A DNA stretch of 48,967 bases from Deltaproteobacteria bacterium (lineage in GTDB: Bacteria; Myxococcota_A; Polyangia; HGW-17; SLPX01). The DNA lies in assembly GCA_021162935.1 (NCBI GenBank), contig JAGGXR010000043.1, forward strand, positions 1-48,967, written 5' to 3'. Shown piece by piece: positions 21,754-43,685 of this stretch. The notes under the pieces are model-generated. The model was given only the letters and a program-made list of their open reading frames with translations. It made no database searches and was not told where the DNA came from. The first letter of the stretch is position 1, and every line of letters starts with the position of its first letter. The translations under genes and the position numbers were made by a program.

Positions 21754-22284
21754 TCAAAACCACTCGTTGAAGTCCTCGATCTGGGTGGCGCGCAGCCGGT
21801 CGCGGTCTGGACGCTGAAACCAGGCGAGTTCCTCGCCCCCTCCCGGGGCAAAGACGGCGGCACTGCGGCAGGCAATTCCTGGATACGCATGGTCCCATGC
21901 GCGCTGTCCGATGGGCTGACACCTGGCATGGCCCACGTCTTTGTTGTGCTCGTCTTTGGGATACGTTGCAGGCAATCCGGCAGCCATGCAGCCTTCATCG
22001 GTGACCACATCGACGTACTCGTCGTAGGCGACCTCGGTCGAGACCAGGACAGGACCTGGGTCCAGGTCACCAAACGTCCATGGGGCACCGTCGAAGCTGC
22101 GCTGCACCTGCGCACGAGCCACCTCCACGGTCGCGTTCAGGTAGACCACGGGAAACGAACCGCGGGCGTTCCATCGACCGCCGCGGCGCATGGAAAAGCT
22201 GCCGTCGAGCGGGTCTGCCCAGTCAGAGTCCGCGACGCGATAGAAGAGGCCTCCCCGCCGTATCGTCCGCATGACGACCTTCAT
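21754..22284 (-). CDS. RES-domain protein, probable NAD-degrading toxin
   Basis: A 176-residue protein covering a RES domain: LFYRVADSDW, RRGGRWNARGSFPVVYLNAT, EVARAQVQ and GIACRSAAVFAPG carry the Arg, Glu and Ser positions that name the family. Characterised RES toxins degrade NAD+ and stop growth, so the same is inferred here. The ATG at 22284 overlaps the stop of the upstream regulator gene as ATGA, the normal antitoxin-first arrangement. The final residues (IEDFNEWF) resemble the end of other RES proteins. Confidence 0.88.
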   Translation of the reverse strand: MKVVMRTIRRGGLFYRVADSDWADPLDGSFSMRRGGRWNARGSFPVVYLNATVEVARAQVQRSFDGAPWTFGDLDPGPVLVSTEVAYDEYVDVVTDEGCMAAGLPATYPKDEHNKDVGHARCQPIGQRAWDHAYPGIACRSAAVFAPGGGEELAWFQRPDRDRLRATQIEDFNEWF

Positions 22285-23084
22285 GCGGTCGCACTCCAGT
22301 CGAACGACGCGCGGATCCGATCCAACACGGCATCATGACGATCATCCGATATCATCTCGACGATACTCTTGCCGGCGAACCAGCCCGCTGGCTTACGCAC
22401 GATCCCGGGAATTCGATCGGGCTTCAGATTGCGCAGGAGGACCTCGGCGATTTGAAGCGTCGTCACAACCTTCGCGCGGCGATCGCCTGGCACATTCCCA
22501 GTGCGAAGCCACTTTTGAACGGCCTGACGCGTGATCCCAAAAAGCCGTGCCAGCTCAGTGTCGTTCAAATCGAATACCTCGGCGATGATGTGGAGCGGCG
22601 TCTGACGACGGGCGGTCCGCAGTTCTCTGACCACGTAGCGACGAAACCGCTCGAAACGAACGGCATCCACTTCTTCGAGCGAGAACACGAACCCGTCCCT
22701 GCTCGCCAAGGTGGGCGTCAGCCCATGCACTTCCTGCAGATACGGAGGCTCGACAGCCCGACGGATTCGTTCCACGAGAGCAACCGCCACCCCAGCGCCC
22801 GGCCCGAACCGTTGGACCCAATTGCTCACCAGAAGATTGGGTGCCTCTGTCAAAGCAATGCTTGCTGCAAGGCGGCTCGTCCGCGCACCGAAGGACTCGA
22901 TCATGCGATTGAGCAAAGACTCATAGGCCCGTGCATACGATCGGCTGGCCCGCGGCCTGCCACGGAGCGCATCCTTGGCAACCAGATCGATCGTGTCGAG
23001 TTCGGCGGAACAGAGGTCCTGACATGTCGAAATGATATCGGAGGGCTCTCCGGACATCAGAACCGTGATTGCGTCAGGCAGCAT
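22281..23084 (-). CDS. Xre/MbcA/ParS-like antitoxin with a long N-terminal extension
   Basis: A 267-residue partner of the RES protein. A helix-turn-helix lies near residues 172-195 (DTELARLFGITRQAVQKWL). The C-terminal ~45 residues (RKPAGWFAGKSIVEMI onward to DRIRASFDW) resemble the toxin-binding domain of MbcA/ParS antitoxins. Ordinary family members are about 120-170 residues. Here the first ~165 residues form an additional helical region I do not recognise. The start at ATG 23084 is fixed by GGGAGG five bases upstream. That site is part of a tandem repeat. Expected autorepressor of the operon. The function follows from pairing and order, not from an identified whole-length homologue. Confidence 0.75.
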   Translation of the reverse strand: MLPDAITVLMSGEPSDIISTCQDLCSAELDTIDLVAKDALRGRPRASRSYARAYESLLNRMIESFGARTSRLAASIALTEAPNLLVSNWVQRFGPGAGVAVALVERIRRAVEPPYLQEVHGLTPTLASRDGFVFSLEEVDAVRFERFRRYVVRELRTARRQTPLHIIAEVFDLNDTELARLFGITRQAVQKWLRTGNVPGDRRAKVVTTLQIAEVLLRNLKPDRIPGIVRKPAGWFAGKSIVEMISDDRHDAVLDRIRASFDWSATA

Positions 23085-23126
23085 GGCGACCTCCCATCGA
23101 GGCGACCTCCCATCGAGGCGACCTCC
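23085..23126 (-). repeat. 16-bp tandem repeat (2.6 copies) multiplying the antitoxin ribosome binding site
   Basis: Units at 23085-23100 and 23101-23116 and a partial at 23117-23126. Read on the minus strand each contains GGAGGTCGCC, so three Shine-Dalgarno copies stand in a row directly before the ATG. The full units also carry an ATG between copies. Confidence 0.95.
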
Positions 23127-23142
23127 TGGCTCGTTCATTTCA

Positions 23143-23171
23143 AGAATAGCGCAACCAAAAGGCAACCGCAA
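23143..23171 (-). promoter_or_regulatory. Likely promoter of the RES toxin-antitoxin operon
   Basis: Minus strand TTGCGG (23171-23166), 17-base spacer, TATTCT (23148-23143). The -35 box and spacer lie inside the 17-bp direct repeats, as expected for a promoter repressed by its own antitoxin. Confidence 0.55.
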
Positions 23172-23214
23172 CCAAAAAGCAACCCAACGGCGCAACCGCA
23201 ACCAGAAGGCAATC
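23151..23214. repeat. Three 17-bp direct repeats, likely antitoxin operators
   Basis: Consensus GCAACCARAARGCAAYC at 23151-23167, 23168-23184 and 23198-23214. The half-motif GCAACC occurs seven times between 23151 and 23234, within each unit spaced 11 bases, about one helical turn. Confidence 0.85.
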
Positions 23215-23464: not shown

Positions 23465-25567
23465 CTACTGGCAGCTTCCCAGGTTCCTCCAGGCCAACAC
23501 GAGGTTGCGACCCGACGTGATGTATCCATAGCGCCGTCCGAGCCAGTAGGCTTCTGTCAGGTCGAGGCCTGGGGACTGTTCCTGGCCTTGAACCGAGTAC
23601 TGCACGCCGATCTCGAATGGATTGCGCTGCCACAAAAAGTCGGTCCAGGGCCGGTACCGCATGGGCAGGGCGTCGCGAGCCTGGGCCTGGGCGCAGCCAT
23701 CCGACAACTGGCACTCGCCTGGCGCGCCGGTGCATTCGGATGTGATAGGCTTGCCGGGAATGCGCACCCCGAACACCTTGAATCCGTCCTCGCAAAAGGC
23801 GCGCTCGTCCTCGGTGGGACAGATCGGTTCATTGCCATCGGGGAGGTGGGCCAGGAGCCACTGACGGTCGATGTCATAGGTACGACGCGGGTCGTCGAGC
23901 ACACCGCCATTGCCACCCAAGGTCTCGACCGCCCGGATGGCCTCGGCAACGGCCTGGGCCTTGGCGGTGGCGATGTCGTCGGGCACCGTACCGGCATACA
24001 TGAAGTCGAACTTGGCGTTGTCCAGGTTATACATATCCTTCTGTTCCAGCTCCACGTCCATGACCTTGGCCAATTCGGTCCGCAACGGGCTGTCGTCGAG
24101 GAGTTCGAGCAAGCTCCAAAAAGGACTGAACGTGATGTGCGACCCGTAGAAAGAACGACACCAACGGGGCGTGCGCAGGGAACTCATGAGATTGGCCACT
24201 TGGAGGGCATGCAGGTTCCCGATGAGCTCGTCGTAGAGGAATTTTCGATACACCTCACGACCAGTGAAGTAATAGGCCATGGCCGCCAGATGGATCATGT
24301 GCATGGCGTCGCCGCCCCGGACGGACACCACGTAAATATGGTCGATGCTTTCCGGTGTGGTCTCCTTGTCGCCTTGAAGGTCCTTCGCCAGAGTCAGAAG
24401 GTCCAAGATAAAATCGTCCGACGTGGCGTCCAGTACCCGATAGGGTTTGAGCGCCGGTGCATCGGGGCAACTCCGATCGAACGTATCTTCGTTCGTCGAA
24501 TTGATGCTTCGGTTGGCGTAGGCCACCACCGTATCGAGCGTGCTCAGGTCCATATCTCCCGGGTCGAGTCGAAGGAGCCCGCGGGAAAAGAAGTCTCGAA
24601 CCGCGTCGAGCGCCTCCTGATTCTGCTGCAAATTTCGAATCTCAATGCGGCCAAGCCGGTTCAGGTAGCAGGTCATCTCGTGTGTGATCCGGTCCTTGGT
24701 ATCCTGGTCCTCGTCCCTGAGCAGGCCGAATACGAGGGGAAAGGCGGTCATGGGGCCCGAATACTGGTCGATGGACGGGTGGCCATGCCAATAAGGCGTG
24801 CCGTCCCAGGTTTTTCCCTGACCATCGATGATGCCGTCTCGATAGACATCGGGCAGGCCCGGCGCATTGACCGGATCGAAATAATGGTCGTTGTCATCGA
24901 AAAAGTCGGCGTTGTATCGGACGATGTGCTCGTCCGTCTTGGGCGCCCCCGGCGCCACGATCAACCCATGGTACCTGGCCACATACCCTGGAATCCCGGT
25001 CACATCGAACAGGATCAGAAGCTGCTTCGTCTTGGTCACCATACGCTCGTAGTCCGCCTCGGTCCCGGTCACCAGATAACGAAGCGCATAGGCGTTCAAA
25101 GCCGCGCCGGTCCAGATGGCCGAGTCGCCCACGCCATCATAGGCGGCGAAGTGGTCCAAGGCCCCCCACTCGGCCTCGGGCGTTCCAGCGGGCGTAGGAC
25201 CGGTAAAGACCCGATTGGCGGTCTGGCCGTCGGGCTGGTGATACCGATCGTACCAGCGCTCGAAGAGAAACACACGACGCACGAGCGGGTCGATCGTAGA
25301 GGGAAACTTGTGCGCCTTCACATCGTACAGGTCGCATTCGCTCAGCACACCGTTTCTGCACTGCTCGTCCAGAAACACGGCGCAGCTCTCCATGTCCGTG
25401 CCGGCCAATGGGTCTGTGGGTGTCGCCCCGCCCGGATCGTGCACCAGCAAGGCAGGAACCGGATCACCACGAGTGCTCCCACAAGCCCCAAGCGCCAAGA
25501 CGCCAAGGATTGCCATGAACAGGCCTCCGGCCAGCGGCGCCGTCCGACCGCACGCTGACGCATGCAT
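23465..25567 (-). CDS. Secreted lipoprotein, 700 residues, function unknown (possible alpha/alpha-barrel fold)
   Basis: I do not recognise a named family. The chosen ATG 25567 has AGGGGAGGGG nine bases upstream and gives a signal peptide ending in LALGAC (lipidated Cys 29). The mature part is acidic and helical with Trp/Tyr/Asp-rich segments such as DSAIWTGAALNAYALRYL, GHPSIDQYSGPMTA, GDAMHMIHLAAMAYYFTG and GSHITFSPFWSLLELL. Such segments recall the repeated helical hairpins of (alpha/alpha)6-barrel glycosidase-like proteins, so a carbohydrate-active or binding role is possible but unproven. A C-terminal Cys-containing region (CPTEDERAFCEDGFKVFG onward) may carry disulfides. It follows the TldD-like pair on the same strand after 140 bases. 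Confidence 0.75.
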   Translation of the reverse strand: MHASACGRTAPLAGGLFMAILGVLALGACGSTRGDPVPALLVHDPGGATPTDPLAGTDMESCAVFLDEQCRNGVLSECDLYDVKAHKFPSTIDPLVRRVFLFERWYDRYHQPDGQTANRVFTGPTPAGTPEAEWGALDHFAAYDGVGDSAIWTGAALNAYALRYLVTGTEADYERMVTKTKQLLILFDVTGIPGYVARYHGLIVAPGAPKTDEHIVRYNADFFDDNDHYFDPVNAPGLPDVYRDGIIDGQGKTWDGTPYWHGHPSIDQYSGPMTAFPLVFGLLRDEDQDTKDRITHEMTCYLNRLGRIEIRNLQQNQEALDAVRDFFSRGLLRLDPGDMDLSTLDTVVAYANRSINSTNEDTFDRSCPDAPALKPYRVLDATSDDFILDLLTLAKDLQGDKETTPESIDHIYVVSVRGGDAMHMIHLAAMAYYFTGREVYRKFLYDELIGNLHALQVANLMSSLRTPRWCRSFYGSHITFSPFWSLLELLDDSPLRTELAKVMDVELEQKDMYNLDNAKFDFMYAGTVPDDIATAKAQAVAEAIRAVETLGGNGGVLDDPRRTYDIDRQWLLAHLPDGNEPICPTEDERAFCEDGFKVFGVRIPGKPITSECTGAPGECQLSDGCAQAQARDALPMRYRPWTDFLWQRNPFEIGVQYSVQGQEQSPGLDLTEAYWLGRRYGYITSGRNLVLAWRNLGSCQ

Positions 25568-25707
25568 CCAACGAGCCCCTCCCCTGTCTGCAACACGATG
25601 TCCCTTCACGATTCCACGTCCCCTTTTCCTCGTCTCGTTCTGCTTCCCTATCGTACCAGCAATTTCCCATCGTACCGTCGACGCGCATGGCCCCGTGCGC
25701 CCAGCCC

Positions 25708-27498
25708 TCAATGAACGAGCGTCAAAGGAGATGGCAGCATGGGCAGTCGAGTCGGATGATCCGTTCGAGGCGTCACACTCGCCCGAGGCAGTACGAAATT
25801 GCGGCACCGGATACTGATGCCGCGGCCCATTCCCAACCACACGTTATGAACCTGCTCCGGCCCACCGAACAGGACGATGTCCTTGAGGTCAGCCGCCTGA
25901 ATCGGATCCAACCGCACGCCACGAACCAAGGTCCGTTTCCCATTGAGGTCCACCCGATACACGAGTTGGGGGCTTGGCAGCGTCACCATCTGCCCCCGGG
26001 ACCGACCAATCCCAAAAAGACTCGGACGTCGAACACGAGTCACCACGTAGCCGTGGTCCAGGCCGGCATGACGGACAGCGGCCAGGTATCGTCGCATCAG
26101 GCCCGACCGAGACAACGACCTTCGCACCCGAACCACCAGATTCGTGGGTGCCGCCACAATCGACAACGACCTCGTCAGCGCCCGACCATGGCCGTTCGAC
26201 CGTTTCACGTCCACCGAAGGACGCCGACTCGACAGGAAGGTCATGAGCCTACCTGCCTTGACCAGGACCACACGCTTCGACACAATTCCTTCGTCGTCGA
26301 GCGTCTGGTGTCCGGCAAGCATTTTGCCCTTGTAGCGACTCAGACCCGGGTCGTCGATCACGGACACCGAGCGCGCTAGAATGGGGCGACCGAGCATCTT
26401 TTCGAACAGGGATCGGCGATTCCAGGTCACGGGCGGCGGATTGGACGAAAGATGCACACCGAGCACACCAAGAAGCGTCATCCCTGCTCCCTGATCCTCG
26501 AACAGGACCGGGCCCGTGTAGTTCTCCTTCACCTTCGGAGCTACGGCGAGCCGTTCGACGAGTTCGGCCAGACGTTTGGCGCGTTCCACCGCCTTGCTCC
26601 GGTCCAAGACCTGACCAGGGACCAGGCGCTGATCATCGGACATCCCAACGTTCCTTCCGTCTGTCGCCTGCGTCAACGCTCTCAACTTGAGATGCCCCTC
26701 CCGGCCGACTCGGCCGAGCCGCACACCCTCGCTCGTGCGCGTCAGTTGCTCGGTCTTGATCACGTACAACGAAACCGAGGACTGCTGGATCTTGGGATGA
26801 GACCGAAACACGGCCGAAGCGGCGAGCACGGCGGCTTTGCCCCCTTGCACCGCAAAAGGACCAATCGCGCCCGACACTGACTGGGAACGCCCCTTCTCCT
26901 TGGTCCAGTCCGCCGTTTTCTGAGCACCTGGATGGTTACGCAGATACGCCTGCTTGGCGGCGTAGTACCCAATCGCCCGGCGATACGCGCTGTCGAAGGC
27001 CAGATGAAGCCCGCGACGAATGGCCAATCCATTGACCTCGAAGGGCACGGCCCGCACTGACAGAGCAGGTCCAAAATGTCCATAGTAATTGGTGTTGTCC
27101 CGGTCCATGCTCCCAACCCGGACCGCCGAGTACACCCTGGCCATTCGCCTCGTCTTGTCCGGACTCATCAAATGGCCCAGGGTCGCATAGAGTCCCCAAA
27201 TCGTGTTTCGCACCCAGGCAACCGCCAAAAAATACGGGGCCGGCTCGCCGGCAATCCGCAGCCCCCTCACGTTGCGCGTCAACTCCTGACGCAAGGCGCC
27301 GTCCACCCGAGGATCGATGGCCGAATGGCCAGCCGTACGGATCATCCTGGGATGGCGCCCAACCATCGCAGGCACCCGACGAGCCATGGCCCGACCCATT
27401 CCATTTGCATGCCGGCGACTCCTGGTTTTGGGCCTGGCCGACGCCTCCATCGTCCATGTGAGACAAACGGCAAGTAGGACCGTTGTGACCATTTTCAT
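25708..27498 (-). CDS. Exported TldE/PmbA-like protein lacking the zinc motif
   Basis: A 596-residue paralogue of the gene just upstream. A Sec signal peptide (MKMVTTVLLAVCLTWTMEASA) is visible. The two proteins share PAPYF near residue 85-90, the N-terminal domain layout and RSNGHGR with the following NLVV. Where the neighbour has HEVFGH, this protein reads LGVLGV (residues 343-348), and the C-terminal zinc-binding Cys is not in place. This mirrors bacterial TldD/TldE, where only TldD is catalytic and TldE is a structural partner. ATG 27498 follows GGGAGG and overlaps the upstream stop as ATGA, so the pair is made in step. Classic TldD/TldE are cytosolic, so export is unusual. Confidence 0.8.
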   Translation of the reverse strand: MKMVTTVLLAVCLTWTMEASARPKTRSRRHANGMGRAMARRVPAMVGRHPRMIRTAGHSAIDPRVDGALRQELTRNVRGLRIAGEPAPYFLAVAWVRNTIWGLYATLGHLMSPDKTRRMARVYSAVRVGSMDRDNTNYYGHFGPALSVRAVPFEVNGLAIRRGLHLAFDSAYRRAIGYYAAKQAYLRNHPGAQKTADWTKEKGRSQSVSGAIGPFAVQGGKAAVLAASAVFRSHPKIQQSSVSLYVIKTEQLTRTSEGVRLGRVGREGHLKLRALTQATDGRNVGMSDDQRLVPGQVLDRSKAVERAKRLAELVERLAVAPKVKENYTGPVLFEDQGAGMTLLGVLGVHLSSNPPPVTWNRRSLFEKMLGRPILARSVSVIDDPGLSRYKGKMLAGHQTLDDEGIVSKRVVLVKAGRLMTFLSSRRPSVDVKRSNGHGRALTRSLSIVAAPTNLVVRVRRSLSRSGLMRRYLAAVRHAGLDHGYVVTRVRRPSLFGIGRSRGQMVTLPSPQLVYRVDLNGKRTLVRGVRLDPIQAADLKDIVLFGGPEQVHNVWLGMGRGISIRCRNFVLPRASVTPRTDHPTRLPMLPSPLTLVH

Positions 27499-29390
27499 CG
27501 TGCACCTCCCTGGCCGTGGGACGCCTCGGTTGCCTGATGGTGGAACGTCGCGCCAGTCCGTCCGGCAGACGACGATCCTAGTGATTGCTCCACGGGCACC
27601 GGCAAGATGGGCGGTCGATTCTTGCCAGCCGGCTTCTTTTGGGTCTCCACTTTTGAGATGAGCAAGGAAGGCGACGTAGCCGACACGGGCACCCAGCCCG
27701 ATTCGGCACCGCACATACCGTTGAACACGGACACGTCGTTTCCCGCGGCCACGATGCGTCGCAACGCCAACAGCGGCGTTCCCACCATGTCCACCCCGCG
27801 AATGAGCTCATCGCGGCGCCCGTCCAGGTACATGCGATACACCTTGACGGGCATCACCTTGAAGGCTTGAGGCATGCTCCTCTGTGTCAAGGTGAATCCG
27901 CCGGACACGTCCTCGAAGATGAGGCCATACGGCTTGTGCTGCCGACGCAAAGCCGCTTTGAGCATTGCACGAAGCATCTCGTACGTGACGAAACGATGGG
28001 GCTCCACCACGAGGTTCGCCTGCCTGGGAACCGCCAACCGACCGAATTGGCGACGGCCGTGGCCGTTGGACCGATTGATGCCGGGAATGGGAATCCGCGA
28101 CATCAAGAACCCCTTGAGCACGCCATGATCCACGAGGGTCGCCCGCTGGGCGGTCATCCCTTCGTTGTCCACCAGATAATGCCCGTTGGCGAATCGACCG
28201 TTGATATCCACGATCCTCGGGTCGTCGAACACGGACAGAAACGACGGCATGATCTGCTGCCCCAGCTTGGCTCTGAAGGTCTGGCCAGACCGCCGCAACT
28301 TCTGGCGATGTCCCTCCATCCTGTGGCCGAACACCTCGTGAAAAAAAACGCCGGCCGCCCTGCCGCGAAAAATAGCAGGCCCCTCGTAGGGATCTGCCAC
28401 AGGCGCCTTACGCAGGACCTCCAGGTCAGAAATCATCGTTTGGGTCAGTCTGGTCAGCTCGGCCAGGCTGGGCAGCCCATCCTGGTTGCTGGCCACCCGA
28501 ATTTCGTTGCGGGCAAGGGGCATACCATCGGGAGCCAGGGTCGCCGCCTGAACCACAACGATATAGCGCGCTCCGGGCACCTGGATCGAGGTTCCCTCGC
28601 TGCTGACCATGTACGAGCCACCTGCCACCCCCGAAATCTGGACCGCACTGGACAGAATATCTGGATGGCCGGAAAACAGATTGGACAGCTTCCTGGCGAC
28701 CGTCTCCCACTTGGGCCTGTCGAAGACGAGATGCGTGGTCTGACAATGCAGGACGAGGTGCTCGGGCGACGAAAAATCGTCGGATGGTTTGGCTGGTTTG
28801 GGCGTTGTCTTGGCCCTGGCCTGCTGGGCCGCATAGGTGCGACAGGCGTTGCGGTACGCCCCGTCGGTGGCCTTCCACAGGGCCATTCGCACCGCCGCCT
28901 CGTCATCGTCCAGTGGCAACGTTGCAACCGTGGTCCAGGATCGATCCAGAAAATGCGTGTTGTCGAAATGCCGATTCCCCACCCGAAGGTCCACGTTGAC
29001 CGAACGAGCACGAATGGTGGCCGACACGGTCAGGCTCCCCAGGCTGGCCGCCACATCGGCCCGTTCCTCGTCCCGCCCTTCGTAGGCGACGAAGTAGGGG
29101 GCCGGGCAGCCGCCCGAAGCACGGAACCCCTTCATGGTTCGGTCGATTTCCTTCTGAAACAGACCGAGCAGCGGCGACGCCTGGGTCTTTCGACAGGTGG
29201 ATTCGAGCTTGAGGTTCCAACGCAGCGACGCCATCGGCTCGTGCGGACGGACCCTCGGCATGCGCTCGACCGGATGCGCCGCTCCCTTGCCCGCCGCCGA
29301 CCCGCCGCAGCCACCCTGCACCACGCACAACGCGGTCCCCAGGGAAACCACCCCCAAGATGATTCCTGCCCAATTGTGTCCTTGTTTCAT
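27495..29390 (-). CDS. Exported TldD-like metallopeptidase (probable lipoprotein)
   Basis: A 631-residue member of the TldD/PmbA family. The N-terminus is a signal peptide ending QGGC (Cys 28), a weak but plausible lipobox. The metallopeptidase motif HEVFGHRMEGH (residues 351-361) corresponds to the HExxxH of TldD. FNGMCGAESGWVPVS (Cys 560) matches the C-terminal Cys ligand region. Other shared blocks are DDPRIVDINGRFANGHYLVDNEG in parts and RSNGHGRR. TldD/TldE unfold and cleave peptides, maturing antibiotics such as microcin B17. An envelope location suggests a different substrate. The start ATG 29390 has AAGGAG six bases upstream. The gene lies 100 bases after the HAD phosphatase. Confidence 0.88.
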   Translation of the reverse strand: MKQGHNWAGIILGVVSLGTALCVVQGGCGGSAAGKGAAHPVERMPRVRPHEPMASLRWNLKLESTCRKTQASPLLGLFQKEIDRTMKGFRASGGCPAPYFVAYEGRDEERADVAASLGSLTVSATIRARSVNVDLRVGNRHFDNTHFLDRSWTTVATLPLDDDEAAVRMALWKATDGAYRNACRTYAAQQARAKTTPKPAKPSDDFSSPEHLVLHCQTTHLVFDRPKWETVARKLSNLFSGHPDILSSAVQISGVAGGSYMVSSEGTSIQVPGARYIVVVQAATLAPDGMPLARNEIRVASNQDGLPSLAELTRLTQTMISDLEVLRKAPVADPYEGPAIFRGRAAGVFFHEVFGHRMEGHRQKLRRSGQTFRAKLGQQIMPSFLSVFDDPRIVDINGRFANGHYLVDNEGMTAQRATLVDHGVLKGFLMSRIPIPGINRSNGHGRRQFGRLAVPRQANLVVEPHRFVTYEMLRAMLKAALRRQHKPYGLIFEDVSGGFTLTQRSMPQAFKVMPVKVYRMYLDGRRDELIRGVDMVGTPLLALRRIVAAGNDVSVFNGMCGAESGWVPVSATSPSLLISKVETQKKPAGKNRPPILPVPVEQSLGSSSAGRTGATFHHQATEASHGQGGAR

Positions 29391-30522: not shown

Positions 30523-30531
30523 TAGTGGTTG

Positions 30532-30587
30532 CGATGGGATGGAACGATCACCTGCAGTGGACAGAGTGCGATGCAGCCATCCCATCG
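30532..30587 (+). promoter_or_regulatory. Leader inverted repeat, 11-bp perfect arms
   Basis: CGATGGGATGG at 30532-30542 pairs with CCATCCCATCG at 30577-30587, with a 34-base loop that can form a further CTGCA/TGCAG stem. It begins right after the inferred transcription start, so it should fold in the mRNA leader. Confidence 0.6.
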
Positions 30588-30663
30588 AAAATGGGACGAA
30601 AAACAAACGAGCCACACAAACAAAGGTAGAGCGGTCAACCGCCCACCACAAGGAGGTCTTGAA

Positions 30664-33663
30664 ATGCGACGTACATTTTTGGCAATCACATTATTGGCGG
30701 GAGCCACGTGGCTCGTGGCATCCTGCAGCGATGACTCGTCAGGTCCGTCCTGCGGAAACGGCATCTGCGAGGATGGTGAAACACCCGATTCCTGCGCCGA
30801 CGACTGCGGCTGCGGAAACGCCATCCTGAACACGGGCGAAGACTGTGACGGCACCCAGTTCGGTAACGCCACGTGCCAGGATCTGGGCTTTTCGGGCGGC
30901 ACCTTGAACTGCTCGGCCACCTGTCAGTTCGATACGTCGTCCTGCACGAACGAATCCAAGTGCGGCAACGGCACCATCGACAACGGCGAAGACTGCGATG
31001 GCACGAACCTGGACAACCAGACCTGCCAGACCCAGGGCTTCGGAGGCGGCACCCTGGCCTGCTCCGACACCTGTCAGTTCGTCACATCCGGCTGCTGCGC
31101 CAGCACCTGCACGAGCGCTGGCGACACCCAATGCAACGGCGACACCGTACAAACATGCCAGACCGGCACCAGCGGTTGCCTCGAATGGATTGACACCACC
31201 GACTGCACCGCCACCAATCAGGTCTGCCACATGGACCAGGGAACGGCGAGTTGCCAAAACACCTGCACAAACCAATGCAACCAGGCCGGCGACACCCAAT
31301 GCAACGGCGACACCGTACAAACATGCCAGACCGGCACCAGCGGTTGCCTCGAATGGATCGACACCACCAACTGCACCACCACCAATCAGTTGTGCATCGT
31401 AAACGAAGGCATCGCGCAATGCGAAAATCCTCCCACGGGCGACGACTGCGGATCCGCCATTCCCATCAGTTCCACGCCGTTCACCATAGACGGGACCGAC
31501 ATCACCGCCGACGCCACCGACGACTACGACTTTTCCTCGAACACCGACTGTGGCACCGCGCATGGCGTGGACATATTCTTCACCATCGACCTGAACGCAG
31601 GCGACACCCTGCACATGGCTGAGACTGGAGGCATGGATGCGGTCATCCGCGTGCTCGACACCTGCGATGCCACGTCAGCCTGTCTGTTCAGCGCAGACTA
31701 CGGGGAAAACGACCTAAGCTTCGTGGCGCCTGCCGACGGCACCTACTTCATCGTGCTGGAAGCCTACTACGCATCACCATCGTCAGTAGACTATCACTTC
31801 GTGGTGGACGTGTATCCGGCCGAATCCGCGTGCGGCGACGGCATCGACAACGACCATGACGGCGACACCGACTGCGAAGACAGCGATTGTGCCGGCCAAG
31901 GATCTTGTGAAACCACCGAAACCACCTGCAACGACAGCTTCGACAACGACGGCGACGGCGACACCGACTGCGAAGATACGGACTGCTTCGGTCAGACCGG
32001 CTGCACCACCGAGACGATTTGCGGTGACGGCGAGGACAACGACAATGACGGCGACACCGACTGTGCCGACTCCGACTGCCAGACCACGGTGGCCTGCCAG
32101 CCTCTCAAGGGCATCTGGCAGGAGTTCGGCAACGACGACCCCGTGGACATTGTGGGAAAAACCATCACCTTCACCCCGGACGCCACGGACGTAAACGGCT
32201 ACACATGGGCGGTCACCGGGGACGCCACAACCTACCCGATCGTGCCCGGAAGCGGCACGACGAGCGCCACCATGGACCTGGGCGACGACGATTCTCAGGC
32301 CTACGCGCTGACGACCATGACGGGTGGTTTTCCGTTCTACGGCACCACGTACAGCCAGATATACGTGGGTTCGAATGGCTACATCGCCCTGGGTGAGGCT
32401 GATACCTCGGTCACATATGACGCAACGGACTTCCTGGCATCCGGGCCCAAAATCGCAGGATTCTCGGATGACCTGGCGCCAGACGACGGCGGAACCATCA
32501 CCATCGACGAGTTCGCCCATAGCGTCGTGGTGACCTACGATCAGGTACCAGAATACTGGAGCGGCGATCTGGAATCCTTCCAGATCGAACTGCTCGACGA
32601 CGGCGTGATCAAGGTCCACTACCTCCAAAGTCAACTCACCGACGAAGGCATCGTGGGCATCACGGCTGGGGTGGGCATTGCTCCATATCCAGCCGAGACC
32701 GACTTCGTGCTGCCGCCTCCGCCGGTGATCAACGAGGTCCTCTATGATGATGACAGTGGTGACGACATGGAGTTCGTCGAGATCAAGGCGCCTTCGGGCA
32801 CGGACCTGTCCGCCTACACGCTCGTGCATTACAACGGCAACGGAGGCAGTGTCATCTGGAGCATTCCGCTGACGGGATATGCTGCAAACACGAACGGTCT
32901 GTTCCTCATCGGATCAAGCCATTGGCCAAACGCGGACATCCACTGGGCAGACGTTAGCATATCCGACACGAATGCGCTGCAAAATGGCGCCGACTCCCTG
33001 GTGCTCTACAAGGACTATGGTTTGGGCACCGAGGCTGAGGTGGACGCTGTTGAGTGGGAAACCGGCGCAAGCGTTTCCCACGCCGAGGGCAGCCCGGCCG
33101 CCGGCACTCCTTTTGGAAGCTGGAACACGTCCTTCGGCCGGTATCCCGACGGAACGGATACGGACGACAACTCGGCCGACTTTTTCACGGAATGGTGGCC
33201 AACGCCAGGCGAGCCCAACAACGGACCCAGCCCGGACGACACGTACAATCGCATCACCGGTTCGACCCAGTCCGACTATGCGGACAGCTTCCCCATCGCC
33301 ATCCCGGACAACGATGCCACGGGCATCACCGTCACCTTCGACACATCCACATGGGACTGGGTCCCTGCCACGGTGGGCGACATCGAGGTGGGCATCAACA
33401 TCTCGCATTCATATATTGGCGATCTGGAGGTCACCCTGACCGCGCCGGACGGCACCACGACCGTTGTGCTGCATGACGAAACAGGCGGTGGCGACGACGA
33501 CATCAATGGCGTCTACGACCTGACCCTGACCCCGGACGACGGCACCAACAACATGGACAGCTTCAATGGCCTGAACGCCCAGGGCACCTGGACCCTCCAT
33601 ATCTCCGACAACGGATTTGGGGACATGGGCCAGCTCAACGAATGGATCCTGTGGATCAAGTAA
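30664..33663 (+). CDS. Large mosaic surface lipoprotein (Cys-rich repeats, PPC-like, lamin-tail, P-domain), copy 1
   Basis: 999 residues. A signal peptide ends LVASC (Cys 21). Then come Cys-rich repeats of the CGNG...GEDCDG type (30-145), two near-identical 56-residue Cys repeats (about 145-255), a PPC-like beta domain (about 258-385), three Asp/Cys repeats of the DNDGDGDTDC type that may bind calcium (388-478), a beta domain with GGFPFYGTTY and VGSNGYIALG (about 500-680), a lamin-tail-like domain beginning VINEVLYDDD (about 688-830), and a C-terminal proprotein convertase P-domain ending NEWILWIK. No protease domain is present, so an adhesive or structural surface role is inferred. ATG 30664 follows AAGGAGGT. 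Confidence 0.88.
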   Translation: MRRTFLAITLLAGATWLVASCSDDSSGPSCGNGICEDGETPDSCADDCGCGNAILNTGEDCDGTQFGNATCQDLGFSGGTLNCSATCQFDTSSCTNESKCGNGTIDNGEDCDGTNLDNQTCQTQGFGGGTLACSDTCQFVTSGCCASTCTSAGDTQCNGDTVQTCQTGTSGCLEWIDTTDCTATNQVCHMDQGTASCQNTCTNQCNQAGDTQCNGDTVQTCQTGTSGCLEWIDTTNCTTTNQLCIVNEGIAQCENPPTGDDCGSAIPISSTPFTIDGTDITADATDDYDFSSNTDCGTAHGVDIFFTIDLNAGDTLHMAETGGMDAVIRVLDTCDATSACLFSADYGENDLSFVAPADGTYFIVLEAYYASPSSVDYHFVVDVYPAESACGDGIDNDHDGDTDCEDSDCAGQGSCETTETTCNDSFDNDGDGDTDCEDTDCFGQTGCTTETICGDGEDNDNDGDTDCADSDCQTTVACQPLKGIWQEFGNDDPVDIVGKTITFTPDATDVNGYTWAVTGDATTYPIVPGSGTTSATMDLGDDDSQAYALTTMTGGFPFYGTTYSQIYVGSNGYIALGEADTSVTYDATDFLASGPKIAGFSDDLAPDDGGTITIDEFAHSVVVTYDQVPEYWSGDLESFQIELLDDGVIKVHYLQSQLTDEGIVGITAGVGIAPYPAETDFVLPPPPVINEVLYDDDSGDDMEFVEIKAPSGTDLSAYTLVHYNGNGGSVIWSIPLTGYAANTNGLFLIGSSHWPNADIHWADVSISDTNALQNGADSLVLYKDYGLGTEAEVDAVEWETGASVSHAEGSPAAGTPFGSWNTSFGRYPDGTDTDDNSADFFTEWWPTPGEPNNGPSPDDTYNRITGSTQSDYADSFPIAIPDNDATGITVTFDTSTWDWVPATVGDIEVGINISHSYIGDLEVTLTAPDGTTTVVLHDETGGGDDDINGVYDLTLTPDDGTNNMDSFNGLNAQGTWTLHISDNGFGDMGQLNEWILWIK
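31120..31389 (+). repeat. Internal 168-bp-period repeat in lipoprotein copy 1
   Basis: Bases 31120-31221 recur at 31288-31389. The first 71 bases are identical and only a few changes follow. They encode the repeated GDTQCNGDTVQTCQTGTSGC segment. Confidence 0.95.
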
Positions 33664-33683
33664 CGAGTCTGTCCTGACCGGAA

Positions 33684-33712
33684 AATCCGGCCCGCTGCCA
33701 GCGGGCCGGATT
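33684..33712 (+). terminator. Strong hairpin after lipoprotein copy 1
   Basis: Perfect 13-bp stem AATCCGGCCCGCT / AGCGGGCCGGATT with a 3-base loop, 20 bases after the stop codon. There is no long T-tract, so it may act as an attenuating or 3'-stabilising hairpin. Confidence 0.7.
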
Positions 33713-33931
33713 GGCACCTTCTCTATTCGGCGCTCGCCCGCGGCATACCTGGGCCCGCCGAGCCCCCGCGATTCAATCCCCAACGTCCATGCTCCCAACG
33801 CGCATCCCTTTTCATGCGACATCCTGCCTGGACGGAGCCAAAACTCGTAAAAACACAGCGTCTGGACCGCTCGGCCCTGCCTCAAAAAGGCGCCATTGGG
33901 CAACAAATCCACCCGACTCAAAAAAAAGCCG

Positions 33932-33961
33932 TTGACCCGGCCTGCGAATCCTGACTAAGAA
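33932..33961 (+). promoter_or_regulatory. Promoter of the second P-domain lipoprotein gene
   Basis: TTGACC (33932-33937), 18-base spacer, TAAGAA (33956-33961), matching the spacing of the copy 1 promoter. Confidence 0.5.
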
Positions 33962-34043
33962 CAAACAGTCATAACGATCGGGCGGGACGAACAAAAAACA
34001 ACGAGAAACATAGAGAAACGACCATGGTGAAGGAGGTTCGATA

Positions 34044-37000
34044 ATGAAACGACTATTTTTGGCAATCACATTCTTGGCGGGTGCCACGTGGCTCGTGGCA
34101 TCCTGCAGTGACGACTCCCACTCGGGGCCCAAATGCGGGGACGGAGTCTGCGATTCTGGCGAAACAGCGGCCGACTGTCCAGCCGACTGCGGCTGCGGAA
34201 ACGGTGTGGTGAACCAAGGTGAGCAGTGCGACGGTCAGGACATGGGCGATACCCCGACCTGCCAAGACCAAGGATTCGAGGGCGGCACCCTGAGCTGCAA
34301 CGGCACGTGCCATTACGACACGACCCAATGCACTGGTGGGTCCCAATGCGGCAACGGAACCAAGGAAGGGACCGAACAATGTGACAAAACCGACCTTGGT
34401 GACCAGACCTGCCAGGATAAGGGCTTCGACGGCGGCGAACTGGGCTGCGACCAGAACTGCCACCTGGATATCTCGGGCTGTTGCAATGACTCCTGCGACA
34501 CGGACGGCGCCAAAAAGTGCCTGGGCGAGGTGCTGCAAGCCTGCCAGACGGGGGGCACCGGCTGCCTCGCCTGGATCAACAACACCGACTGCTCCACGGC
34601 AGGCGGCCACTGCGTGACGGACGACTCGGGCGCCCATTGTGAAATCCCCTGCACGAATCACTGCCAAACCGATGGTGAACTGCGGTGCCACGGCGACATC
34701 CTGCAAGTCTGCAGCATGCAGGGCGACTGCCTGGACTGGGCGGATCAAACCGACTGTACGACCACTCAGCAGTTTTGTTCTACCGATGGGGGCACGGCCC
34801 ATTGCGACACGGCGCCACAAGGGGACCGATGCGCGAATCCGATCATGGTGACCTCGACGCCCTTTACCATGGATGGCACTGACATCACGGACGACTACAC
34901 GGACGCGTACGACTTCTCGGGAACAGACTGCGGCACGGGACACGGCGCAGAGGCGATCTTCAGCATCGACCTGACCTCGGGGCAGGTCCTGCACATGGCT
35001 GAGACTGGAAGCATGGATGCGGTCATCCGCGTGCTCGACACCTGCGACGCCACGGCAGCCTGCCTGTTCAGCGAAGACTACGGCGAAACCGATCTGAGCT
35101 TTGTCGCTCCCGCAGACGGAACCTATTTCGTGATTCTGGAAGCGTATTTTTCCACTTCCACGAGCGTGGACTATCATTTCACCATCGATGTGCCGCCGCC
35201 CGAGTCACAGTGCGGCGATGGCGTGGATAACGACTTCGACGGTGACACCGACTGCGAAGACAGCGATTGTGCCGGCCAAGGCTCTTGTGAAGCCACCGAG
35301 GCCACCTGCAACGACAGTTTCGATAACGATGGCGATGGCGACACCGACTGCGCCGACAGCGATTGTGCCGGCCAAGGCTCTTGTGAAGTCACCGAGGCCA
35401 CGTGCAATGACTCATTCGACAACGATGGCGACGGCGACATCGACTGCGCCGATACCGACTGTTTCGGCCAAACCGGCTGCACCACCGAGGCGCTGTGCGA
35501 CGATGGGGCGGACAACGACGGCGACGGCGTCACCGACTGCGCCGACTCCGACTGCCAGACCCTGGTGGCCTGCCAGCCTCTCAAGGCCATCTATCAGGAT
35601 TTCGACAGCGACGATCCCATGGACCTGGTGGCCCACAGCATCACCTTCACGCGCGACACGAACAACATCAACGGCTACACCTGGGCGGTCACCCAAGACG
35701 CCACAACCTACCCGATCACACCCGGAAGCGGCACGACGAGCGCCACCATGGACCTGGGCGACGACGAATCTCAGGCCTACGCGTTTGCGACCATGACGGG
35801 CGGCTTTCCGTTCTACGGCACCACGTATCACAGCATGTTCGTGGCCTCAAACGGATACATCGCCCTGGGCGTCGATGACCACTCTCTCCACCCTTCGGCT
35901 GCCAGCTTCCTGCCGAACGGACCCAAGGTCGGCGGCTACTCCGTGGACCTGGCGCCAAACCACGGCGGAACCATCACCATCGACGAGTTCGCTCACAGCG
36001 TCGTGGTGACCTACGACCAGGTGCCCCGATACTCCAGCGGCGAGCTGGAATCCTTCCAGATCGAGATGCTCGATGACGGCACCATCAAGTTCCACTACAT
36101 CCACAGTGAATTGACGGATGAGGGCGTCGTGGGTATCACCTCCGGAGTCGGGATCACGCCCTATCCGCCTGAAACAGACTTCGTGCCTTTTGCTCCGGCA
36201 GACACGGTGCTGATCAACGAAGTGTCCTACGACAATCCAACGACCGTCGATGCAAACGAATTCGTCGAATTGGTCGGGGCCCCAACCATGCGGAGCCTCG
36301 ACGGCTACACCCTCGTGCACCACGACGGTGACACGGGAGCGGTCATCTGGGCCCTGCCCCTGGACGGCCTCCGCACGAGCGATGCGAGCGAAATTCTCAT
36401 CGGCCCGTCCACCATGGCCGGAATCGACATCAGTTGGGCCCAACTCGGACTGCCCAACGAAACGGACGTCCTGGACGACGGTCCGGACTCGCTGGTGATC
36501 TACGCCAACTGGGATGGATCGAGTGGCGACCCAGTGGACGCGGTGGAATGGGAAACCGGCGCCTCACATTCTCATGCCGAGACTGCGGCCTGCAAGGGGG
36601 TCGAAGATTCGGACTGGAACACGTCCATCGGCCGGTACCCGGCCGGTCACGACACGGATGACAACTCGTCCGACTTCTTCGTGCAGTGGTGGCCCACGCC
36701 CGGCGAGCCCAACAACCAGCCCGGACCGGACAGCACCTACTTCCGCCTGACCGCCTCGACCCAGTCGGACGAAGCGGCCCAGTTCCCCGTCGCCATCCCC
36801 GACAACGACGCTTCGGGCATCTCGGTGCACCTCAACACGAATAACGTCACGGGATTCAATCTCACCTCAATCACTGACATCCAGGTGGGGATCAAGATCT
36901 CGCATACATGGATTGGCGATCTGATCGTGACGCTGACAGACCCGACGGGGATGATGCGCGAACTGCGCCACCGCTCCGGAAGCTCTACGGAGAACATCAT

Positions 37001-37151
37001 GACCGTGTTCGACATGGTCGACACGACCGATGGAAGCGACTTGGACGACTTCAACGGAGACGACCCCAGGGGCGAGTGGATCCTGAACGTTTCGGACAAC
37101 GCTGGCATCGATACGGGCGACCTGGAAGAATGGGTCCTGTGGGTGAAGTAG
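34044..37151 (+). CDS. Large mosaic surface lipoprotein, copy 2
   Basis: 1035 residues, same architecture as the preceding gene: signal peptide with LVASC (Cys 20), CGDG/CGNG Cys-rich repeats, PPC-like domain, Asp/Cys repeats (four here, three in copy 1), the GGFPFYGTTY beta domain, a lamin-tail-like domain (VLINEVSYDNPT) and a C-terminal P-domain ending EEWVLWVK. Several stretches are almost identical in DNA to copy 1 (for example around 34990-35050 and 35700-35790) while the Cys-rich N-terminal region is far more diverged. This suggests duplication followed by gene conversion or selection. ATG 34044 follows AAGGAGGT. Function is unknown; a surface-exposed adhesive or calcium-dependent protein is inferred. 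Confidence 0.88.
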   Translation: MKRLFLAITFLAGATWLVASCSDDSHSGPKCGDGVCDSGETAADCPADCGCGNGVVNQGEQCDGQDMGDTPTCQDQGFEGGTLSCNGTCHYDTTQCTGGSQCGNGTKEGTEQCDKTDLGDQTCQDKGFDGGELGCDQNCHLDISGCCNDSCDTDGAKKCLGEVLQACQTGGTGCLAWINNTDCSTAGGHCVTDDSGAHCEIPCTNHCQTDGELRCHGDILQVCSMQGDCLDWADQTDCTTTQQFCSTDGGTAHCDTAPQGDRCANPIMVTSTPFTMDGTDITDDYTDAYDFSGTDCGTGHGAEAIFSIDLTSGQVLHMAETGSMDAVIRVLDTCDATAACLFSEDYGETDLSFVAPADGTYFVILEAYFSTSTSVDYHFTIDVPPPESQCGDGVDNDFDGDTDCEDSDCAGQGSCEATEATCNDSFDNDGDGDTDCADSDCAGQGSCEVTEATCNDSFDNDGDGDIDCADTDCFGQTGCTTEALCDDGADNDGDGVTDCADSDCQTLVACQPLKAIYQDFDSDDPMDLVAHSITFTRDTNNINGYTWAVTQDATTYPITPGSGTTSATMDLGDDESQAYAFATMTGGFPFYGTTYHSMFVASNGYIALGVDDHSLHPSAASFLPNGPKVGGYSVDLAPNHGGTITIDEFAHSVVVTYDQVPRYSSGELESFQIEMLDDGTIKFHYIHSELTDEGVVGITSGVGITPYPPETDFVPFAPADTVLINEVSYDNPTTVDANEFVELVGAPTMRSLDGYTLVHHDGDTGAVIWALPLDGLRTSDASEILIGPSTMAGIDISWAQLGLPNETDVLDDGPDSLVIYANWDGSSGDPVDAVEWETGASHSHAETAACKGVEDSDWNTSIGRYPAGHDTDDNSSDFFVQWWPTPGEPNNQPGPDSTYFRLTASTQSDEAAQFPVAIPDNDASGISVHLNTNNVTGFNLTSITDIQVGIKISHTWIGDLIVTLTDPTGMMRELRHRSGSSTENIMTVFDMVDTTDGSDLDDFNGDDPRGEWILNVSDNAGIDTGDLEEWVLWVK
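35259..35450 (+). repeat. 96-bp tandem repeat in lipoprotein copy 2
   Basis: Two units, 35259-35354 and 35355-35450, each 32 codons, encoding DSDCAGQGSCE followed by the DNDGDGD segment. Copy 1 of the gene has one unit fewer. Confidence 0.9.
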
Positions 37152-41522: not shown

Positions 41523-41573
41523 CCTGCTGTTTCTGGCAGGGACCGGCGTCCCTACGAAAACAGGCGTCCCTAC
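41523..41573. terminator. Palindromic element between two convergent genes
   Basis: CCTGC (41523-41527) pairs with GCAGG (41536-41540), and alternatively GGGAC (41539-41543) with GTCCC (41548-41552). The 11-mer GGCGTCCCTAC occurs twice (41545-41555, 41563-41573). It probably serves as a bidirectional terminator, or is a small REP-like element. Confidence 0.45.
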
Positions 41574-43330
41574 CAGGAGGTCATCTTTTCCAGAACCGTA
41601 TAATGGGGCAAAATGTCCACGGGGATGCCCTTCAAACGCTTGAGGGCATCGGCCAGGACCGGAGACATGACCCCGTACTTGGTGACGAATCGTTTGGCGG
41701 CCTTGTAGTCGCCACGCGCCTCGAGGGTCAAGAGATCATGCGCCAGATCGCGCACCGCCTGCTTGATCTTGGAAAAATCGAGCTGGAACCGATGCGTTGC
41801 CTTGTCGTATAGGATGGCGCCCTTATCCGTCAGGTAATTGAAGGAAATCAGGTTTGCGCGGCCATGCGCCTCGGTGGCTCCGAATCGAATGGCCCGGAAA
41901 AAGCCAGCCAGATACGACGCGTAGACACGACGGTCCAGATCCTTGGGCAGCACGCCCTTGCCGATGAGATACGACGACAGGTAGAGGCCGGTGATATCCG
42001 CCTTGCCTTCTTCGATGGTCGAATACAGATCCAACAGTTGGTGGTTCACATCTGTCTTGACCTTCTTGCCGTTGCGCTCCACCACGATCTGGCCCGGGCC
42101 CTGACCGTGGGCCGTCTCATGCATGAGCGTATTCGTGAAAAAGGCATCGAAGTTTACTAACTTGAGCTGCTCGGGATCCATGAGTCGCCGGGCGATGGGC
42201 ATCAAGATGGCGTTGAACTTGGCATGTCCCACGTTCTTGAGGAGCACGAGCTTGTACCCCTTCTTCTGCCGAACCACCTCGTCGTTGGGCAGGTTGAAGG
42301 CCAAGGTCTGGACACCGACCTTCGTGTCGCCTGCCGTGAACAACTCGTCCACCACCGTGATAGGCAGGCTGCCTCCCCGCTTGAAGTTCTTGTCCTTGTC
42401 GGCAATGGGCAGCGCATTCTCCATGTCCTTTTTGTACTTGGCGATCTTCTGGAGTCTGGCGCTGTAGACTGGATCCCTGAGACACACAAACGATTCGAAC
42501 GAGGCCTTGTACCCAAACAGTCCATCTTCATAGACTTCGTACGGACCGATGACCACCTCGATCGTGCCGTCTCCGAAATCGAGCCACGCCATATCCGAAG
42601 GACGATAGTCGTTCGTGGAAAAAGCCTTGGCTCGAAGCTCCAGGTACTTCTTGAGCCTGGCATCCTTGGTAAGCGCCGCTGCCTCTCGCAGATATTTCGC
42701 TGCCCGCTGCAGGAAGGGCCGATAGGCCGTCGAGTAAGGAATCGCCACGAGTTCCTTTCCCTTCCTCTGGATGACCGTAAAGTAGGATTTGAATGCTTTC
42801 GCCTTGTCCGGATGCGCCTTCACAAAAGTCTCGAACTCTTTTTTGGTCATATCGGTCGGATAGAACCCGGCACCAAGCGGCTTCTTCCGCCTGCCGTAAA
42901 ACGGCTTGTCGTGATCGAGGCGATCCCACGGGCCAGACATCATGTCGAAATAGGCGAGCACGTCCTTGAGCTTCGGATCGGCTGCGAGCTTCTCCCGGAG
43001 CTTCGGATTCTTCGGGTCCACCTGTATCAGAAACAGGTCATCCATGACCTCGGCCGCCTGGACGAGTTTTTTGATCACCTTCTTGTCCGTTGCCGACAGC
43101 CCCTTGGTATCGAAGTTCAGCGACGTGGGCACGAACTTGGCCAACTTGGCACGCACCGAAGCCGTGCGATCCTGAGCACGAGCCGCCGACCGGACCGCCG
43201 TTCCCTGAGCCGCAGTCTTGGTCTTGGCAGACTGTGTCCCCGCCGCCTGCTTCGTCTCGTCCCCTGCGTTCTTCTTGCCACAGCCCATCATCAAACCTCC
43301 AAGCAACAAACCCAACAACACTTTCTTCAT
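41570..43330 (-). CDS. M49-like (dipeptidyl-peptidase III-related) lipoprotein metallopeptidase
   Basis: 586 residues. A signal peptide ends MMGC (Cys 17), followed by a Lys/Ala/Thr-rich linker and a large helical domain. The zinc site reads HETAHGQGPG (residues 404-413) with the second Glu in EEGKADITGLY (440-450). This HExxH plus EExxAD pair is the pattern of bacterial relatives of DPP III; classical M49 has HExxxH and EECRAD. Peptidase activity in the envelope is inferred. Start: ATG 43330 lies eight bases after GGGAG; ATG 43336 is too close. It overlaps a palindrome at its 3' end and is convergent with phaR. Confidence 0.8.
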   Translation of the reverse strand: MKKVLLGLLLGGLMMGCGKKNAGDETKQAAGTQSAKTKTAAQGTAVRSAARAQDRTASVRAKLAKFVPTSLNFDTKGLSATDKKVIKKLVQAAEVMDDLFLIQVDPKNPKLREKLAADPKLKDVLAYFDMMSGPWDRLDHDKPFYGRRKKPLGAGFYPTDMTKKEFETFVKAHPDKAKAFKSYFTVIQRKGKELVAIPYSTAYRPFLQRAAKYLREAAALTKDARLKKYLELRAKAFSTNDYRPSDMAWLDFGDGTIEVVIGPYEVYEDGLFGYKASFESFVCLRDPVYSARLQKIAKYKKDMENALPIADKDKNFKRGGSLPITVVDELFTAGDTKVGVQTLAFNLPNDEVVRQKKGYKLVLLKNVGHAKFNAILMPIARRLMDPEQLKLVNFDAFFTNTLMHETAHGQGPGQIVVERNGKKVKTDVNHQLLDLYSTIEEGKADITGLYLSSYLIGKGVLPKDLDRRVYASYLAGFFRAIRFGATEAHGRANLISFNYLTDKGAILYDKATHRFQLDFSKIKQAVRDLAHDLLTLEARGDYKAAKRFVTKYGVMSPVLADALKRLKGIPVDILPHYTVLEKMTSW

Positions 43331-43685
43331 CACCATCTCTCCCTTCTGCTCCATGGACAGCGCCTCGGCGTCACCATGGTCGGCAGATGTCAGGACATCG
43401 AGCTTTACGACAGGCGGCCTGGACCAAGCCATTCCTTCTCGGTGAAAAACCACCCTTCGCTGCCACCGCCAGGAAACTATCAGATCCAGCGATTTTCAAA
43501 AAGGCTGAATCCGTCCCTGTCCGGTCCCGGAAGTCGGTCCGACTCGAAACAGCAATCTCCTGTGGAACCACGAACAGTCGATGAAGCACATCCAAAACCG
43601 TGACGGTACGAGGTTCTGTTGACACAACACAACCGACCAACTACGATCCTGTTTGTCATATGTTGGTTGGCTTAAGGAGGTCCCC
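43331..43685. other. Divergent intergenic region
   Basis: About 355 bases between the M49-like gene and the ConA-like lipoprotein gene. The right part has a strong plus-strand promoter (43619-43647). The minus-strand promoter of the M49-like gene was not identified. Confidence 0.55.
43619..43647 (+). promoter_or_regulatory. Sigma-70 type promoter of the ConA-like lipoprotein gene
   Basis: TTGACA (43619-43624), 17-base spacer, TACGAT (43642-43647). The short leader ends in TAAGGAGGT and GTG 43686. Confidence 0.65.

Follow-up and report, generated by a model that had tools for sequence, protein, structure and literature searches.

Two adjacent genes on the minus strand of the window, a 48,967-nucleotide stretch of DNA, probably encode an envelope-exported, TldD/E-like heterodimeric metallopeptidase that would trim unfolded peptides; we put the probability of this reading at about 0.7. 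By analogy with the E. coli enzyme we infer the dimerisation and the activity of the pair. The active-type gene comes first and its degenerate paralogue follows (Table 1). A comparison of the two proteins shows 28% identity over 546 columns (E=2e-40), so they are true paralogues, and the ATGA overlap of the two genes described by an earlier sequence-only reading is confirmed. That reading had seen an intact zinc motif and a C-terminal Cys in the first protein and LGVLGV in the aligned place of the second; the alignment agrees on each point, and the Cys is gone from the degenerate subunit at the position aligned with C560. Promoter and terminator scans of the gene-pair region gave no more matches than in shuffles.

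Table 1. Features of the putative exported TldD/E-like gene pair in the window.
Feature	Position	Strand	Evidence or remark
Putative active-type exported TldD-like metallopeptidase subunit (P0002), 631 aa	27495..29390	-	PF19289 E=3.8e-29; E. coli TldD 5nj5 E=2.5e-17; Z=34.3 to TldD
Putative degenerate exported partner subunit (P0001), 596 aa	25708..27498	-	PF19289 E=2.7e-12; paralogue alignment; Z=26.0 to TldD, 24.0 to TldE
ATGA stop/start overlap joining the active and degenerate genes	27495..27498	-	
Predicted signal peptide of the active subunit, residues 1-27; VVQGGC as possible imperfect lipobox	29310..29390	-	Shine-Dalgarno AAGGAG 6 nt upstream
Predicted signal peptide of the degenerate subunit, residues 1-21, ASA cleavage site	27436..27498	-	Shine-Dalgarno GGGAGG 6 nt upstream
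Zinc motif HEVFGHRMEGH, active subunit residues 351-361	28308..28340	-	H351/E352/H356/E359 = E. coli TldD H262/E263/H267/E270
C560 in MCGAESG, active subunit, third metal ligand (E. coli TldD C454)	27711..27713	-	
LGVLGV, degenerate subunit residues 343-348, aligned with HEVFGH	26455..26472	-	

Both monomers are predicted to have the two-domain fold of TldD and TldE, with a pLDDT of 79.9 for the active and 73.9 for the degenerate model. Superposition on E. coli TldD aligns 446 residues of the active model and 438 residues of the degenerate model, both at 3.6 Å. In the structure search TldD/TldE entries are the sole fold matched by either model, and nothing else scores above Z 5.2. At the level of profiles, both proteins exceed the Pfam cut-off for PF19289, the PmbA/TldD C-terminal domain, and the TldD models of NCBIfam match weakly, far below their cut-off. 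The N-terminal domain PF01523 is recognised in E. coli TldD/TldE but finds no profile match in either protein or anywhere in the window's genome; the fold model nonetheless spans this domain. A sequence search of the PDB matches the active protein to E. coli TldD (5nj5) and finds no match for the degenerate protein.

The metal ligands of E. coli TldD are H262, H267 and C454, with E263 beside the first His (PMC5810440). These residues map to H351, H356, C560 and E352 of the active subunit, and the HExxxH motif with its distant Cys is present in this subunit alone. Seven residues (H351, E352, G355, H356, R357, E359 and C560) are invariant across the aligned active subunits, while the zinc ligands are lost in every degenerate partner aligned. 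With these folds, the loss of ligands in the partner and the paired loci described below, the proposed TldD/E-like logic of one active and one inactive subunit is supported. The surroundings of the metal differ from those in E. coli, where the clamp is tethered by Lys456 through salt bridges with Glu270 and Asp272. Glu270 is kept as Glu359 in the active subunit, but Lys456 is replaced by Ala562 and Asp272 by His361, and the active site may therefore be tuned differently.

Relatives of the pair are widespread. A scan of named genomes confirmed at least 580 relatives, and the best 80 loci were analysed. The records of these best 80 are labelled Acidobacteriota, Planctomycetota, Gemmatimonadota, Verrucomicrobiota, Bacteroidota, Ignavibacteria, Melainabacteria, Elusimicrobia, Cloacimonadota, Zixibacteria, WOR-3, Aminicenantes and Proteobacteria, labels that come mostly from metagenome-assembled genomes, so that some names may be wrong. 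Within the window's phylum, 85 of 191 genomes carry a member of the exported clade. A search of plasmids returned weak canonical relatives only.

The replaced clamp residues bear on a second reading, in which the same exported heterodimer would be an amide hydrolase (deacylase) acting on a specific small molecule or cofactor of the envelope or of secreted material, instead of a general peptidase. The TldD/E family is said to include N-deacetylases, according to the title of Vobruba et al. 2022 as cited in PMC10885120. Yet across phyla neither a biosynthetic cluster nor a conserved neighbouring enzyme gene accompanies the pair, and its broad distribution suggests a general role, so a deacylase appears unlikely. 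Among the neighbour genes compared across phyla, none is conserved that would name a substrate. An M48 protease, a lytic transglycolase with a SPOR domain, a sigma factor and a formyl transferase do recur, mainly within Acidobacteriota loci. They look like shared synteny of that phylum, and assignment of a function via the gene neighbourhood was rejected.

The sequence-only reading had suggested a link between the pair and a roughly 700-residue lipoprotein downstream. This 701-residue predicted lipoprotein (23465-25570, minus strand) matches no Pfam family, and none of the other loci compared has a homologue of it next to the pair; the link is not supported. At 30529-37151 (plus strand) two large, Cys-rich exported proteins are encoded in tandem; they are related to each other and carry proprotein-convertase P-domains at the C-terminus. 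A RES-domain protein overlapping a helix-turn-helix partner at 21754-23201 (minus strand) resembles a RES/Xre toxin-antitoxin pair. At 41573-43453 (minus strand) we find an M49 (dipeptidyl peptidase III-like) peptidase, an apparent lipoprotein (MKKVLLGLLLGGLMMGCGKK) with HETAH in place of HExxGH; it is one more peptidase of a usually cytosolic kind that the window's genome apparently exports.

The comparison of loci speaks for a partnership of the two genes. In same-class relatives the tandem pair is found at ten loci, one of them as two contig ends, and the site is intact in the first protein and lost in the second. Among the best 80 of the at least 580 relatives, the degenerate gene lies directly downstream in 75, is fused in one and is missing in four, in one of which the contig ends 530 bases downstream. 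The junctions are tight, with a median gap of -1 nt and an exact 4-bp ATGA overlap in 28 of 64 measurable pairs. Three fusions are each encoded in one frame; L202 (1135 aa) and L203 (1138 aa) come from the window's phylum, and the third is L063 (1172 aa). In all three a single signal peptide is followed by the active domain and then by the degenerate domain. Apparent long N-terminal fusions at L113 and L129 were discarded, because their extra stretches seem to be non-coding sequence carried along in a stop-to-stop frame.

These loci also bear on the possibility that the active subunit is an envelope homodimer and that its degenerate neighbour is no partner at all but a paralogue that is decaying or acts on its own. 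The window's phylum does contain unpaired exported homologues with an intact motif, some of them in genomes that look complete. Not every member of the clade therefore requires the partner, and an archaeal TldD homodimer is reported active in work cited in PMC5810440. However, the degenerate gene is open, exported and adjacent in the great majority of the best loci, 11 divergent copies of it share 34 invariant columns, and it is fused to the active one in three genomes. A homodimer that works without this partner is thus quite improbable. Three further members of the exported clade (L049, L050 and L051) have neither signal peptide nor partner, which suggests a return to the cytosol.

Export signals, of Sec type, are predicted on both subunits, as had been claimed, and recur in most of the relatives. 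Each ATG is preceded at 6 nt by a strong Shine-Dalgarno site (AAGGAG-tcatcg-ATG for the active and GGGAGG-tgcacg-ATG for the degenerate gene). The N-termini are therefore unlikely to be mis-set, and the signal peptides (MKQGHNWAGIILGVVSLGTALCVVQGGC in the active and MKMVTTVLLAVCLTWTMEASA in the degenerate subunit) are very probably translated; misassigned starts, which the sequence-only reading had named among the outcomes that would speak against it, were rejected because of these sites. By a single simple heuristic, which is not SignalP, 88 of 98 active subunits and 69 of 76 degenerate ones have a signal peptide; several of those missed seem on inspection to have one too, or lie on truncated contigs. 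The same gene pair with signal peptides, sought in other genomes at the suggestion of the earlier reading, is thus found, with signal peptides on about 90% of the subunits. Under a similar rule 32% of the other long open reading frames in the same loci score as positive, genuinely exported proteins among them. The canonical TldD proteins of relatives, taken as a control, gave a surprise, with twin-arginine-type signals in four of seven cases.

The active subunit had also been called a probable lipoprotein. In the window its lipobox is atypical, with Gln at -3, while the active subunits of most same-class relatives have clean lipoboxes (LAGC, LLAC, LAAC, LSSC). Lipidation is therefore plausible for the group and uncertain for the window protein itself.

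A phylogenetic analysis separates the exported proteins from the cytosolic ones. In a tree of 80 rows the exported proteins cluster together, apart from canonical TldD plus TldE, and all degenerate partners fall into one group. In a tree of 30 rows the split between the exported pair and canonical TldD plus TldE receives 100/100. Constraining the inactive partner to group with TldE in the 30-row tree lowers lnL by 73.6 and is rejected (p-AU 9.2e-5), which rules out the inactive partner as a TldE orthologue; nor does the active subunit behave as an orthologue of TldD, given the separate clade. Long branches are a caveat. A TldD-related protein with HESCGHPAE (L135, 1426-2904, plus strand) sits on a long branch, outside the rest of the canonical TldDs. 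From the separate clade and the rejected constraint, the arrangement of one active and one inactive subunit probably evolved twice, once in the exported clade and once in TldD/TldE. That the pair might simply be cytosolic TldD/TldE with misread N-termini, as the family name and the fold could suggest, is very improbable in view of the start sites, the signal peptides that also head the fusions and a tree that excludes orthology with either protein.

The order of events inside the exported clade is less clear. A tree with more unpaired exported homologues and a canonical outgroup places the paired active and paired degenerate groups as sisters (97/98), each monophyletic (100/99), with the unpaired exported homologues outside. 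In the 30-row tree, two unpaired exported homologues instead join the active subunits (93/85). When the duplication took place within the clade is thus less sure than the clade's separation from TldD/TldE. In the 80-row tree the sub-clades match between the active and the degenerate halves, which indicates co-inheritance. The simplest history would be that an exported active ancestor was duplicated and one copy lost its site, independently of the TldD/TldE duplication.

The two systems also differ in their occurrence. The two proteins are the sole TldD-family proteins of the window's genome (97.1% complete), while canonical TldD-family proteins are present in 25 of 27 good related genomes. Among 25 named genomes with the exported protein, all draft assemblies, canonical TldD/E domains are seen in 16 and none in nine. 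Since no canonical proteins are seen in the window's genome or in these nine, the exported pair seems independent of the cytosolic one. With its separate clade, export signals, paired loci and fusions, the pair can be regarded as a system distinct from TldD/TldE, as was proposed.

E. coli TldD/E forms a shell whose one metal site lies in TldD; unfolded N-termini enter it through a narrow pore, and cleavage is insensitive to sequence (PMC5810440). For the preferred reading, the exported trimming peptidase, we envisage a similar mechanism. Both chains would be made from one message and would assemble in the periplasm as a hollow shell containing one metal site, and in the window's class this shell would probably be tethered to the outer membrane via a lipidated active subunit. 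Unfolded peptides or protein N-termini could enter via a narrow pore and be trimmed independently of sequence, with the inactive subunit closing and enlarging the chamber. Its likely role would be to clear or trim peptides and unfolded segments in the envelope. We see somewhat better than an even chance for the wider proposal that such a chambered TldD/E-like heterodimer, its pairing evolved independently, is widespread outside the cytoplasm and serves many phyla as an ATP-free periplasmic or surface 'pencil sharpener'. If this is true, an energy-independent compartmentalised peptidase would be added to envelope proteolysis from Acidobacteriota to Planctomycetota and Bacteroidota, and the TldD/E fold would have come to pair an active with a dead subunit a second time, independently.

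A comparison with E. coli TldD/TldE (PmbA; MEROPS M103; PDB 5nj5) shows the same predicted two-domain fold in both subunits, and likewise one subunit with HExxxH and a distant Cys and a second that is inactive. In contrast, both subunits of the exported pair carry signal peptides by our heuristic whereas TldD/TldE is cytosolic, the site was lost separately in a separate clade, and the exported genes are adjacent and overlapping while tldD and tldE are unlinked in E. coli. The signature HExxGHRxEGxR...CxAESG further sets the exported pair apart. Two other kinds of exported protein share the TldD fold. In relatives of the window's genome, four canonical-type TldD proteins with the motif HEAIGHGME (L024, L025, L031 and L032) start with twin-arginine signals, and in some a lipobox-like Cys comes next, which suggests Tat export of canonical TldD; three of the four were placed in the canonical TldD clade, and a canonical TldE follows. 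Unpaired exported TldD-like proteins (e.g. L194, L195, L197 and L201) belong to the same exported clade as the pair and have a signal peptide and HExxGHRLEGER, but they have no degenerate partner nearby and branch outside the paired clade. As unpaired, paired and fused forms all exist, comparing them could show directly what the dead subunit is for. TldD/E is treated as an intracellular peptidase in the literature searched, and our searches of that literature for an exported or periplasmic form found none described, though a mention in the 2022 family review is possible. The fold and the probable chemistry of the pair are those of TldD/TldE; the pair is set apart by its probable envelope location and by an inactive partner that probably evolved independently.
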